Made by a program: the position numbers and the translations under genes. Below are positions 19,649 through 60,837 of a stretch of 63,578 nucleotides of DNA, in pieces. The notes beneath the pieces were generated by a model. It was not told where the DNA came from. It ran no database searches and worked only from the letters and a program-made list of their open reading frames with translations. Position 1 is the first letter of the stretch. Every line of letters begins with the position of its first letter. The stretch spans positions 1 to 63,578 of the forward strand of contig VGZJ01000003.1 in the NCBI GenBank assembly GCA_016872595.1. The letters are read 5' to 3'. The stretch comes from Planctomycetota bacterium. GTDB lineage: Bacteria > Planctomycetota > Planctomycetia > Gemmatales > Gemmataceae.

Positions 19649-19824
19649 GATAAGGGGTTGGGCGGGCGGTGGGAATCTCGGACGGGCGCGCGACCCGGGG
19701 AGTTGCCGCGCCGGGAAAATGGCGCGACGGGGCTTGAGTTAATGTGTTATCTCGTATACTATAAGAACGGAAGTTCAGGTTCTTGGTGTTGGTGCCGCGA
19801 GCCGAGCGGCACTCACGAAGGGGA

Positions 19825-20181
19825 CATTCTGATATGCGCCCGTTGTACTACAACTTGTCGTATTGCAACTTCGGCGGCGCGGCCTTCATTCTGATAAGCG
19901 CTTGTTGTACTAGGATTTTTCGTTTTGCAACTTCGGGGCGGGGGGCGGGTGCTGTGACCACCCCGTCGCTCACGCTCCGGGTCCGCCGGTCGCGCGGATC
20001 TTGTGCAACCGATTTCGATTTTGCCACTTCGCGCCGCGATGCCTCGACACGGAATGGCGGGCTACAATCGGGTCGCGCGCCTTGTGCAACCGTTTTCGTT
20101 TCGGCCACTTCGCGCCGCCGCGGCGCGGCGGTCTACTCTGGCGCGGTTGTACAACCGATTAGGAATTGTGCCCGTTCGCGG
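19825..20181. repeat. Repeat array A (about five degenerate 36-42 base units)
   Basis: In the 600-base gap 19649-20250, units with core TTGT(G/A)C(A/T)A..TTTCGTTTTGCAACTTCG begin near 19841, 19901, 20000, 20081 and 20145, spaced 60-100 bases. The first two are preceded by CATTCTGATA(T/A)GCGC with a 62-base period. The array is more AT-rich than the genes. A TATACT at 19755-19760 could drive transcription. An open frame (ATG 19834 to TGA 20196, 120 codons) spans it, with recurring (C)(A/T)T.F.FATSR peptides. A homologous array lies at 57076-57385. Repeats are too variable for CRISPR. Confidence 0.65.
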
Positions 20182-20212
20182 GCGCGCCCGCCGTGACGCG
20201 CCCGGATTCGGG

Positions 20213-56980: not shown

Positions 56981-57075
56981 GGCACGAAAAATCACGGCTA
57001 CCGAGCTTGATCGAGTGTGTCATAAAGTATAGTGTGGAATTAAGTGCAGAAGTGGGCGCGCTCAGCGCGCCGCGC

Positions 57076-57385
57076 GGGATATGCCGATATGCGCCAGTTG
57101 TACTCCACTTTTTCGTTCTGCAACTTCAGGACGGCGGTCCTCATTCTGATAAGCGCTTGTTGTACTAGGATTGTCCGTTTTGCAACTTCGGGGTGTTGTG
57201 CAACCACCCCGGCGCTGCCGCTCCGGGTTCGCCCGTCGCGCCGGCGTTGTGCAACCGATGTTGAATTCGCCCCAGTTCATGTCGGGCAGGCTTCTTGTCT
57301 GCCTTCGTTGGGTAGGCCAGCGGCCTTCACCACCACAATCAGGAGCGCGGCCGTTGTGCAACCTCTTGGGAAACGGCCACTGCGT
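57076..57385. repeat. Repeat array B, homologous to the 19.8 kb array
   Basis: The gene-free gap 56981-57448 contains units beginning near 57097, 57157, 57195, 57246 and 57352 with the core TTGT(A/G)C.. and TTTCGTTCTGCAACTTC as at 19825-20181. The stretch CTCATTCTGATAAGCGCTTGTTGTACTAGGATT is nearly identical in both arrays. A frame from ATG 57089 stays open for 110 codons in the same phase as in array A (starts M-R-Q-L-Y vs M-R-P-L-Y). TATAGT at 57028-57033 could be a promoter. GC is clearly below the surroundings. Confidence 0.65.
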
Positions 57386-57448
57386 ACCCGCGCGCCACAC
57401 ATAGGGAGGGCTGTTGGGTAGCGCTTCCAACTTGTGCTACTCGCGCAC

Positions 57449-59720
57449 TCATTTCTTGCCGGTGAGGGCGGGGCCGTCCGCGCCGCGGGTGAAGCCGAAG
57501 AGCGCGGGCAGTTGCGTGACCGATTGCTTGCCGTCCACGGGCACGAGCGCGGCCGGTCGAACTGACGGCGCGGGCCTTGCCGCTGGCGACCTCGTCGGCC
57601 AACCCCGGTACGCGGCCGACGCCGTAGCGCAGCCACTCGCCCACCGACACGACGCCGTTGGGCGGGTCGAAGTCGGCGCGGTTCTTGGTCAGGCCGTCTT
57701 TGCACAGCGCGTAGGTGAGCAGCCCGTGGCCGACGCGGTCGTCTTCGAGGGCCACGTCGTCGGTCCGACTCCCGTCCAGCACGCGCATGCGCTTGTCGAC
57801 GGCGCGCTTTAAGGTGTCGTCAGTCACGTCGCGGCCTTTGCCGATGTCGGACGGGAACAGGTAGAACCGGCCGCCGGTACCGTTGAACCCGTGCGTGCTG
57901 AACGTGAGGATCACGGCGTCTTCGGGGCGCGCAGCCCGCAGGTCGGCCAAACCGGGCACGGCCCTCACCAGCTCAGAGGGTGGCTTCTCGCCGGCCAGCG
58001 CGCCGAGCGCGGCGCGCACATTGGCCTTCGTCGCGGTCGATACGATCCCGGTGCGCTTCCCGACATTGTCGAACGTCGGCTCCGAAAGGAGCGTGACGAC
58101 GACCCTCTCGTACCGCCCGGACGCCTTCAGCCCCGCGGCCAGCGTGTCGCCCATGAGCTTCGCGTCCGGCGCGGCGAAGCGCAAGTCCCACTTCGGTTCG
58201 TCGGAGCCGTTCACACCGACGCACACGATGTACGCCGTATCCTTGTGCGGGTCGAGCGCCGGGAGCGCGTGCGCGCGCCGGTGCGTGTCGCTCTTCACGC
58301 AGTCGACGTTGAAGGCATTGCCCGAGAACTCGACGCCCTTCTGCCCCGCTCGCGGGAGCTTGACGCGGTCGAAGGTAACGGTCGCGCGGCCGGTCTTGGG
58401 GTCGAGCGCGAGCGGCCCGGCGCGGAGGCCGACGAGCCGGCCGTCGCGGAACAGGTGCAGGTCGGCCGCGCCGCTACGCACCAGCGCCGGCCCGATGACG
58501 CGCTCTTGCCCCGCGATCTCGACGGTCACGCTCACCTCATCGGCCGCGCCGGGCGCGGGCGCTACTTTCACGACGCGTACGAGGGGCTGCACGCGGTTCA
58601 GGTCCGCGACCGAGCGCACGGCCGGCAGTTTCTCGCCCGCCAGCACTCGCGCGAGCAGCTTGGGTTCGTAGTAGTCGCGCAAGAAGATTTCCGGCGGCAG
58701 CGGGCGGAACGGCTCGTCGGCCGCCACCCAGTGGACGCCGTTCACCGCGTTGAGGTTGTTGGCGTCGAAGCGCCCGTCCGGGGCGACGACGGCCCACTCG
58801 CCGTTTCAGAACGCGACGATCCGGCACCGCTCCTTCTCGGTGTCGGCGTCCCAGAGGCGCGCGGTCCCGTCAGACCCGGTGGTGCCGACGTGCGCGCCGT
58901 CCGGCGACAGGGCCGCGGCGTTCACGGTGGCGTCGTGGCGCGCAAACTCCTTGAGCTGCTTGCCGGTCGCGGCGTCCCAGAGCCGCGCGGTGCCGTCCAC
59001 ACCCGCGGTCAGCACGCGCTTCCCTTCGGACACGAACGCCGCGACCGGCAGCCCGGACGTGTGCCCCGCGAACTTCACCTTTTCCTTGCCGGTCGCGGCG
59101 TCCCACTCCCGGCCGCGGTTCTTGTTGCCGCCCGCGGTTGCGAGCCACTTGCCGTCTGCACTGTACGCGACGTGGCCGTTAAACCTGTGGCCGGGCAGTT
59201 TGTGTACCACTTTCCCGGTCGTGACCTCGATCACAGTCGCCGTTTCGTCGCCGCCGACGATGACGCGCGCCCCGTCCGGGTCGAACGCGACCGAGTTGGC
59301 ACTGATCCAATCGGCCTTCAGCACCTGAAGCGGTTTGGCGGTGGCGGCGTCCCACACGCGCACGGTGTTGTCGCCGCCGATGGTGGCGACGCGCGTCCCG
59401 TCGGCGCTGTACGCGACCGCGGAAAGGGTGAGCGTGTGACCGACCAGTTTGGCCACACGCTTACCGGTTCTCGTGTCCCAGATGGTGGCGTCCTTCTCGA
59501 AGCCCCCGCCGGTGACGATGCGAGTGCCGGCGCGGTTGAACGCCACCGACTCGGCGTTCATCCCGGGCTCGCGGCTCGTCAGCCGCTCCGTGCCCGTGGC
59601 CGTGTCCGCGAGCACAACCGAACCAACGCACGCGAGCGCGACGAGGCTCCCGTCGCGGCTGAACGCGGCCCCCTGCACGTCGCCGCCGCGCGGCCCGAGC
59701 GCGCAGTTGGGCACCGGTCG
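57449..59720 (-). pseudogene. WD40-caspase-like gene, multiply disrupted
   Basis: On the minus strand, from about 59720, runs a WD40 propeller cut at its 5' end (AAFSRDGSLVALACVGSVVL, VWDAATAKPLQVL, ARLWDAATGKQL). It meets an in-frame TGA at 58806-58808, then continues in frame with NGEWAVVAPDGRFDANNL into a caspase-like domain (IVCVGVNGSDEPKW.., His in LTFSTHGFNGTGG). The segment that should carry the DACHSG active Cys is deleted: TLKRAVDKRMRVLDGSRTDD joins directly. A frameshift near 57550 precedes the family C-terminus (QSVTQLPALFGFTRG..TGKK, stop 57449). It is a dead gene unless recoded. Confidence 0.7.
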
Positions 59721-60837
59721 CGGCGTCGTGCATCGCGACCTGAAGCCGCAACACGTGATGCTCGACTCCGCCGGCCGCGTGCGCGTCATCTACTTCGGCC
59801 TCGCGCGCCTGTTCGCGCCGACCGAAGGCGTTCCGTCGGACCTCGGCGCGATTTCGGGCACCGTGCAGTCCATGGCCCCGGAACAGGCCCGCGGCGACAC
59901 GAACGCCATCGGCCCGCGTGCCGACGTGTTCGGCCTAGGCGGGGTGCTGTACTTCCTGCTGACCGGCGCGCCGCCGTATGAGTGTGGCACGAAGCTCGAC
60001 ATGCTCACGCGCGCCGCCCGCGGCGAGTGGGACCGCACGAAGCTGGGCGTGTTCGGCACCCCGCGCCGGCTGCGCGAGGTGTGCGCGAAGGCGCTCGCCC
60101 CGGACCCGGCCGACCGCTACCCCACCGCTGACGCGCTCGCAACCGCGCTGCGCCGCGCGGTCGCCCCCGCGCGCCGCTGGCGCGCCGTCGGTGCGGTCGC
60201 GCTGTGCGCGCTAGCGCTCGGCGTGTGGGCCGCGACCCGCAAGCCGGCCGAACCCGCGCCGCCGCCTTCGCCTGAGGTGGCGAAGCCCGAACCCGCGCCG
60301 GCGCAGCCCATCTTTAATGTGCGCGTCTGGAACGAGCGGCAAGGGAAGTACGTGAGCGCCGCGACCGCGCTGCCGCTGCAACTGGGCGAGAAACTGCGCT
60401 ACGAGGCCGACGCGCCCGCGAACCGGCACCTGACGCTGTTCGTCGTCGAGCCAACGGGCGAAGTTCGCGAACTGACCACGACCGCGCCGCAAACGGACGC
60501 CGGCACCATCGGCTTCCCCGCGAACCCGCAACAAAGTTCGCCACTGGTGATGCCCGCGGGGACCATGATGGTGTTGCTGTGCGGGCGCGCCGCGGGGCCG
60601 GTGAGCGCGGACGAGGTTCGCGCCGCGCTCGGTTCGGAACCGTGGCCGACACTCCCGCAATAGTCGCTTGTGTTGCTGGAGCGCGGCAAGGTGACGACGT
60701 TCGGCGGGCGCTGCCCCGGCGCGCCGGTCGCGCAGCCCGACCCCGAAGGCGAAGTGCTGCGCCGCCTCGACGCGGCCCGCCGCGCGCTGCACCCGACGTG
60801 CGACGTGCTCGCCGGCGTCGTGTTTGCGTTCAAGTAA
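59710..60837 (+). pseudogene. Ser/Thr kinase gene remnant (C-lobe and C-terminal domain)
   Basis: The frame begins abruptly at the catalytic loop: VVHRDLKPQHVMLDSAGRV. The loop Asn is His, and DFG reads YFG (VIYFGLARLF), so activity is lost. The C-lobe (GTVQSMAPEQARGDT, DVFGLGGVLYFLLTGAPPYE, DPADRYPTADALATAL), a membrane helix (about 60185-60240) and a beta-rich exported domain follow. TAG at 60661-60663 interrupts the last domain, which continues in frame to a TAA at 60835-60837. The 5' half is missing where it meets the WD40-caspase remnant head to head. Confidence 0.7.

Follow-up and report, generated by a model that had tools for sequence, protein, structure and literature searches.

Scattered bacterial repeats of the kind described below are best known from well-studied pathogens. 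BOX elements from Streptococcus pneumoniae are described as extensively structured small interspersed repeats that are nearly limited to a single species and its closest relatives; some of the large copies are transcribed, with reading frames that they encode by chance, and the elements are judged likely parasitic (PMC3049150). The STAR elements of staphylococci are described as interspersed intergenic direct repeats with variable spacers, found at species-specific loci (PMC3532100). The BrickBuilt MITE from Porphyromonas gingivalis is presented as a dispersed intergenic element of tandem short units between a leader and a tail; its 23-nt units lack spacers, its ends are small inverted repeats, and its promoter activity is bidirectional (PMC4596501).

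The window analyzed here is the whole stretch of 63,578 nucleotides, and it contains two arrays of short repeat units, designated as A and B. It is judged with moderate confidence that array B is a copy of a dispersed, directional, non-coding, and non-autonomous repeat element, which is probably transcribed and carries its own promoter-like head. The element is like BOX in being a modular intergenic repeat with many copies and a narrow host range, a likeness by description only (PMC3049150). Unlike BOX, it resides in a different bacterial group, and sister species here keep the head and change the repeats. BOX is not known to include a conserved promoter-like head with a direction. Interspersed intergenic direct repeats with variable spacers and loci differing by species are shared by description with STAR, while the promoter-headed layout with two unit types and the host group differ from STAR as it is described (PMC3532100). 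BrickBuilt is likewise a dispersed intergenic short-unit element behind a leader; in contrast to it, the units here are about 31 nt with variable spacers, terminal inverted repeats were not found, and the head is one-sided only (PMC4596501). Concerning the features that characterize a MITE, an insertion against empty sites was observed at locus A only, and in A and B every inverted repeat detected is internal, with no terminal pair.

The element works like BOX, STAR, and BrickBuilt, with the conserved one-sided head and the species-rewritten repeats as added features, by which it is set apart from them as they are described. It probably acts for the most part as a non-autonomous and largely parasitic repeat comparable to the pneumococcal BOX elements. 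Among the titles and abstract openings searched, no scattered repeat family was described for this planctomycete group. The unusual feature is a promoter-like head that several species have in common, followed by repeats that are exchanged from one genome to the next. If the units are transcribed, a cell would contain dozens of similar RNAs, and the pattern of a head plus rewritten repeats would point to a partner that could be isolated biochemically.

Layout and census of the arrays

Arrays A and B (Table 1) align from the TATA-like box through the leader and the two type I units to the type II units, and the shared unit type proposed for them in the initial annotation is thus confirmed. The 31-nt block reported there as common to both arrays is exact at 19887-19917 and 57142-57172; in the window it has two matches at 3 or fewer mismatches, against none in 100 shuffles. 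The TATA-like site noticed before the ATG corresponds to a conserved GTATA[CG]TAT box, which lies in array B at 57027-57035, 62 bases 5' of the ATG. The 3' half of the first type II unit in array B merges into a ACCCCGGCGCTGCCGCTCCGGGTTCGCC repeat, which is present in several genomes of the genus.

Table 1. Coordinates of the parts of arrays A and B in the window.
Feature	Position	Strand	Basis
Array B, head included	57006-57383	+	
Array B promoter-like head, CTTGA-N16-GTATAGTGT, 17 bp from TTGATC to TAGTGT	57006..57035	+	one mismatch to CTTGAN16GTATASTAT
Array B leader, GC-rich inverted repeat GGGCGCGCTCAGCGCGCC	57036..57079	+	sequence reading; hairpin on folding
Array B first type I unit, contains ATG at 57089	57080..57127	+	HMM match 57097-57127 and 17-nt prefix
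Array B second type I unit, opens with the exact 31-nt shared block	57142..57189	+	block match and HMM
Array B type II unit, GTTGTGCAACC	57195..57225	+	profile, 4.1 bits (weak)
Array B type II unit	57246..57276	+	core pattern and profile
Array B final type II unit	57353..57383	+	profile
Array A, head included	19733-20176	+	
Array A promoter-like head	19733..19762	+	exact CTTGAN16GTATACTAT
Array A first type I unit	19825..19872	+	profile and sequence reading
Array A second type I unit, carries the 31-nt shared block	19887..19934	+	block match and profile
Array A type II unit	20000..20030	+	profile and generic unit pattern
Array A type II unit	20081..20111	+	profile and generic unit pattern
Array A diverged type II unit, GTTGTACAACC	20146..20176	+	profile
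Locus A DNA missing from the matching site in relatives, approximate extent; best empty site in G014	19700..20205	+	

The genome of the window (G000; 6.8 Mb in 590 contigs, with the window as contig C3) was searched with the 31-nt block and the type II core. The block has 11 copies at 3 or fewer mismatches, of which 7 are exact, and the 21-nt type II core has 70 matches at 3 or fewer mismatches, with 0 for the control. Forty other loci were retrieved from the block and core searches, which makes 42 with A and B. One further array, on contig C138, was found through its head alone, and units are present in it. The family therefore consists of 43 loci with differing flanks, and the two arrays do belong to a dispersed family as had been suggested. 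The initial annotation had named as a counter-case that only two copies exist and derive from one segmental duplication. Such a duplication would fit the block of 31 nt and the arrangement of parts that A and B have in common, but it is most improbable, with 43 loci in different flanks and an alignment of A and B that ends with the array.

The core profile has 143 matches over the 42 loci, and 140 of them are on the main strand of their own locus. The family has about 140 homologous units; some low scorers among the 140 matches sit off the main cluster and are due to chance. The type I unit is CATTCTRATAWGCGCNN-GTTGTACYAGAGTTTTTCGTTTTGCAACTTC (GTTGTAC..TTGCAACTTC) and the type II unit is GTTGTGCAACCGATTTTGATTTYGCCACTTC (GTTGTGCAACCGATTTTGATT). 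The unit core is about 31 nt, a length which is partly by construction because the seed pattern of the profile required 31 nt. The best copies of the two types are equal in length and can be aligned without gaps, and others differ by a few bases. Usually, the promoter-like head and the leader come first, then at most two units of type I, and last at least one unit of type II, all on a single strand, and the element is about 0.3-0.6 kb in size. Type I units, counted by pattern in the 42 loci, number at least two in 15 loci and one in 14, and none was found in 13. This order has exceptions: at least in L043, L047, L049, L074, L080, and L160, the type I units are preceded by one that is type II-like (GTTGTGCAAC or CTTGTGCAAC). 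Six of the 43 loci (L051, L055, L070, L071, L073, and L078), some of them near contig ends, are a lone type II unit without a head.

A CRISPR-like regular period is absent, as exemplified by unit starts that are 42, 56, 42, and 67 apart in L054 and 71, 66, and 69 apart in L066. No cas genes were found among the best 25 of the 107 Pfam families from 72 array-neighboring proteins.

The spaces between units (57205-57232 and 57283-57340 in the window, and many loci such as L043, L050, L065, and L069) often contain other dispersed hairpin repeats, such as GGTGCCGC...GCGGCACC, TGTGGGACAGGCC...GGCCTGTCCCACA, and ACCCCGNCGCTNNCGCTCCGGGTTCGCC. At least ACCCCGNCGCTNNCGCTCCGGGTTCGCC also matches several other genomes of the genus. 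These hairpin repeats may insert preferentially inside the arrays.

Coding potential, folding, and the promoter-like head

The in-phase open frame pointed out in the initial annotation is seen in both A and B, where the units are spaced by 62 nt. If a small protein family (MRxLYxNFSFCNF...) were translated from the first unit, it would explain the ATG and the open frame spanning both type I units in A and B, and the phase is kept in 10 of the 15 arrays with two type I units. Such a family is nevertheless very unlikely. The codon at the position of the ATG is AAG, ACG, ATC, or GTG in many other units, and the phase is broken in 5 of the 15 arrays. Phase-keeping mostly reflects inherited spacing, as 9 of the 10 phase-keepers use spacings of 62 or 68 nt, and the high G+C content yields long open frames by default. 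Since the start is lost in many units and the phase is broken in a third of these arrays, the element is considered not to be coding. A protein-coding gene family was rejected, as neither the start codon nor the frame is conserved, and the open reading frame does not hold as a shared feature of the family.

Folding was compared with shuffled sequences (34 arrays, 25 shuffles each), and the mean z was -2.56 for the sense strand versus -1.63 for the antisense strand (Wilcoxon p = 0.0007); the values for array B were -1.49 and -0.18, respectively. The better folding of the sense strand and the conserved head give partial support to the initial idea of a regulatory RNA family, but covariation is weak. 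As a functional multicopy regulatory RNA, the arrays would be repeat-RNA genes whose units bind protein or RNA as a sponge or scaffold, with selection keeping the head and the units coevolving with their partner. Besides the folding, two observations favor it: swapping the partners in the type I stem GTTGTAC/TGCAAC worsens its pairing, only 1 of 2000 permutations being as good, and the head is common to G000 and its relatives G014 and G020, and found once in G019, while the repeats differ. Own partners, however, gave no advantage for the outer type I flanks (924/2000) or the type I loop (1093/2000). RNAalifold returned no consensus structure for the type I alignment, which includes 44 of the 45 candidate units, the poorly matching L059:1462-1521 being left out. 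A two-sided change at a pair of the stem other than the outermost was seen in 2 of the 44 sequences only, and the covariation over the whole type I structure was equalled by 68 of 500 shuffles. In the named type I structure 91.6% of helix 1 cells pair, with covariation little above shuffles. Rfam 15 gave no match in the whole window at the gathering score and none around array B at E<=5, and the RNA is a predicted one. A functional regulatory RNA is thus rather unlikely, and a structured RNA is weakly supported.

The type II units were also considered as hairpins with a variable stem and a conserved loop. This candidate seemed convincing in a few copies but was rejected, as the flanking stems failed the swapped-partner test in three windows, where 1960, 1657, and 1855 of 2000 swaps paired as well.

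The head is CTTGA-N16-GTATA[CG]TAT, that is, TTGAnn and TA[CG]TAT separated by 17 bp, and an A-rich stretch often precedes it. The GTATASTAT box is present at one or no mismatch in 28 of the 42 loci, where about 0.1 per locus is estimated by chance with equal base frequencies assumed; matches with two mismatches are near the chance level and were not counted as heads. The scan took non-overlapping matches, and array B and L044 are among the 14 of 42 loci without the box only through the choice of register. The exact full head occurs 21 times in the genome, always before arrays: 20 are at the loci listed from units and the 21st belongs to the array on C138. As the exact head is confined to arrays, it is part of the element and not an ordinary promoter of the genome. 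A unit was detected with a narrow regular expression after 18 of the 21 heads, and the remaining three (L044, L061, and L072) have units by the profile.

The head is predicted to act as a sigma-70 promoter. A generic sigma-70 scan with a 9-of-12 rule, which is stricter than these boxes, called no promoter at A or B, and the predicted promoter activity is therefore argued from conservation. Each headed copy would make a short repeat RNA from the sigma-70 head.

Heads and repeats in other genomes

The 31-nt block has 0 copies in 94 other genomes of the family. The type II pattern matches once each in 11 of these genomes and not in the other 83, and its control has one match in one of the 94. Among the other genomes of the genus, 18 in number, G014 (65% complete) has 20 copies of the exact head, G020 has 12, and each of the other 16 has 0-1, with 0 for the control in all 19 genomes of the genus. 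By the narrow regular expression, units follow 18 of the 20 exact heads in G014 and 6 of the 12 in G020, and no following unit was seen by it for the remaining six heads in G020.

The repeats behind the common head differ between these genomes. The units in G014 are of the same style with a different sequence, such as GGATTTGTGCAACACTTTTTGCAAACTACCAATTCG-like and CCTTGTGCAAGGTTTTGAGATTTTCCACTTCG, and those in G020 are GTTGGCCAACTCGG. In G019, the single exact head is followed by CATTCAAACAACGG..GAGTTGTGCTACACTTTTTCAAAATGCAACTC. The G020 unit pattern has 56 matches in its own genome; eight others have 1-2 matches each, and 86 have none. Its control has 1-2 matches in three genomes. A generic unit pattern (TTGTGCAA, 8-22 nt, CCACTTCG) has 23 matches in G000, 11 in G014, and 2 in G019; G010, G017, and G032 have a single match, and the remaining 89 genomes have none. 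When reversed as a control, this pattern matches 1-3 times in 8 genomes, and thus single matches are at the chance level. At least one of the 23 matches in G000 (C111) shares its spacer with a match in G014 (C282) and is probably conserved gene sequence. Exact matches to the type I prefix numbered 0 in collections of genome contigs and viral contigs, which may omit the genome of the window itself.

The same head before different repeats in sister species hints at a fast-evolving repeat RNA family. A repeat motif rewritten per species (GTTGTGCAAC versus GTTGGCCAAC) is as expected if it matches a fast-evolving trans-acting partner, for which a defence protein, an RNA-binding protein, or a mobilising enzyme would be candidates. 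It is a tentative and somewhat doubtful proposal that the arrays constitute a new multicopy repeat-RNA system of Gemmata-like bacteria, with dozens of transcription units, one conserved promoter, and a species-rewritten repeat motif.

The changing repeats could instead be read at the DNA level, as clusters of TTG-N2-CAA dyads that bind a nucleoid or regulator protein whose site changed between species. The short dyad is indeed kept in GTTGTGCAAC from G000, in CCTTGTGCAAGG from some G014 units, and in GTTGGCCAAC from G020, and the copies are many and intergenic. The dyad is, however, broken in the type I units (GTTGTACYA), and CTTGTGCAACC variants disrupt its outer pair. Neither the one-strand direction nor the promoter-like head would be necessary for protein-binding sites, and DNA-level site arrays are considered unlikely.

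In the G020 arrays L124, L142, L145, and L158, a small hairpin-like stretch separates the GTTGGCCAACTCGG repeats; it is of the GCTAGNATTTCTAGC type and has diverged in some of these arrays. Their leader contains GTTCGTT...GCGCGAAC.

Insertion, spread, and neighboring genes

The array at locus A is flanked by a MoxR-type ATPase gene and a PMT_2 gene. At least one flank is matched in 17 of the 18 relatives, and none in G017. Both flanks are on one contig in 12 relatives (G009, G010, G011, G012, G014, G019, G020, G021, G023, G024, G025, and G026) and on separate contigs in five (G013, G015, G016, G018, and G022). Compared with the window, 11 of the 12 relatives with single-contig flanks have 436-513 fewer bases between them; G025 has only about 60 fewer, and a different palindromic repeat is present there. 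Because 11 of 12 relatives are without 0.44-0.51 kb at this site, the array at A is an insertion. The flanks abut in G014. In the other relatives, 200-380 unaligned bases separate the aligned blocks, and for these the array was judged absent by length and pattern counts. No array is present at this site in G014 and G020 either, although both have their own families. The mobility considered in the initial annotation is therefore supported by an empty site in relatives, at locus A only. No clear target duplication was found among the flank alignments listed for A, where the G014 empty site was compared by eye and its flanks are diverged. The site may take insertions repeatedly, as seen from the other palindromic insert in G025 (L108).

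At locus B, the upstream creatininase gene is kept in most of the genus and its downstream neighbor is not. The two flanks are not adjacent among the relatives listed, and the flanks of L077 and L058 also lie apart among the relatives listed and are uninformative on insertion; A is the sole usable empty site. Relatives found with the creatininase protein include Gemmata, Zavarzinella, Fimbriiglobus, and many MAGs of Gemmataceae and other planctomycetes, from which the genome of the window is regarded as Gemmata-like. None of the 80 named creatininase loci listed has an exact head or more than one unit by the regular expression.

The flanks of the 43 loci were compared with those of the 20 G014 and 12 G020 head loci. 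Arrays are near the same gene across two genomes at three sites (L046/L153, L061/L137, and L062/L142). A fourth pair, L043/L152, has about 130 bp in common in one comparison and no match in a one-strand comparison. Arrays near the same gene in two genomes could be old, conserved loci rather than fresh insertions, and some arrays may thus be old.

The similarity between type II units is 0.694 within arrays and 0.690 across arrays, and 346 of 1000 permutations are as high. For the type I units of 15 arrays, the first and second units of one array have a similarity of 0.742, compared with 0.828 between second units across arrays. This pattern indicates that arrays spread whole and not by local multiplication of units. 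Since the head sits upstream of any transcript start and would move along with the array, it is likely that DNA, not RNA, is copied. The likeness of units within a genome and their difference between genomes would reflect turnover by transposition or conversion, probably involving a trans-acting factor that recognizes the unit, for which most type II units have a TTG-N2-CAA core.

Mobilization by a neighboring Y1 transposase, as for REP/BIME repeats moved by RAYT, was rejected. Y1_Tnp has five matches in G000 (C48, C119, C241, C291, and C296), none of them on an array contig, and within the genus 15 of 18 further genomes also have matches, most of them without these arrays.

No common theme was found among neighboring genes: 107 Pfam families were recognized in 72 proteins beside 41 loci (A and B excluded), and none is in more than two proteins. 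This agrees with the earlier view that the proximity of array B to caspase and kinase genes may be a matter of chance. As to the decayed state and identity ascribed to these neighbors, Pfam confirms a minus-strand WD40 protein at 58806-59789, but the caspase and kinase labels were confirmed by no tool. Beyond a single in-frame stop (58806-58808), the WD40 frame (minus strand, 57381-59789) goes on into sequence that looks caspase-type by eye. Pfam made no call in this sequence or in four other frames at E<=1, and a PDB search gave one weak match with an E-value of 0.048, which is probably due to chance.

The upstream gene is on the array strand at 28 of 37 loci (p = 0.0026) and the downstream gene at 19 of 39, in counts that omit loci without a gene call on that side and that use approximate gene calls by codon-position G+C. 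The upstream bias indicates that arrays tend to follow stop codons. Eight arrays in G000 (L044, L045, L048, L050, L068, L069, L076, and L080) have a convergent downstream gene. At these arrays, the last unit stops no more than about 2-7 nt from the open frame of the gene, and the whole intergenic space is apparently filled.
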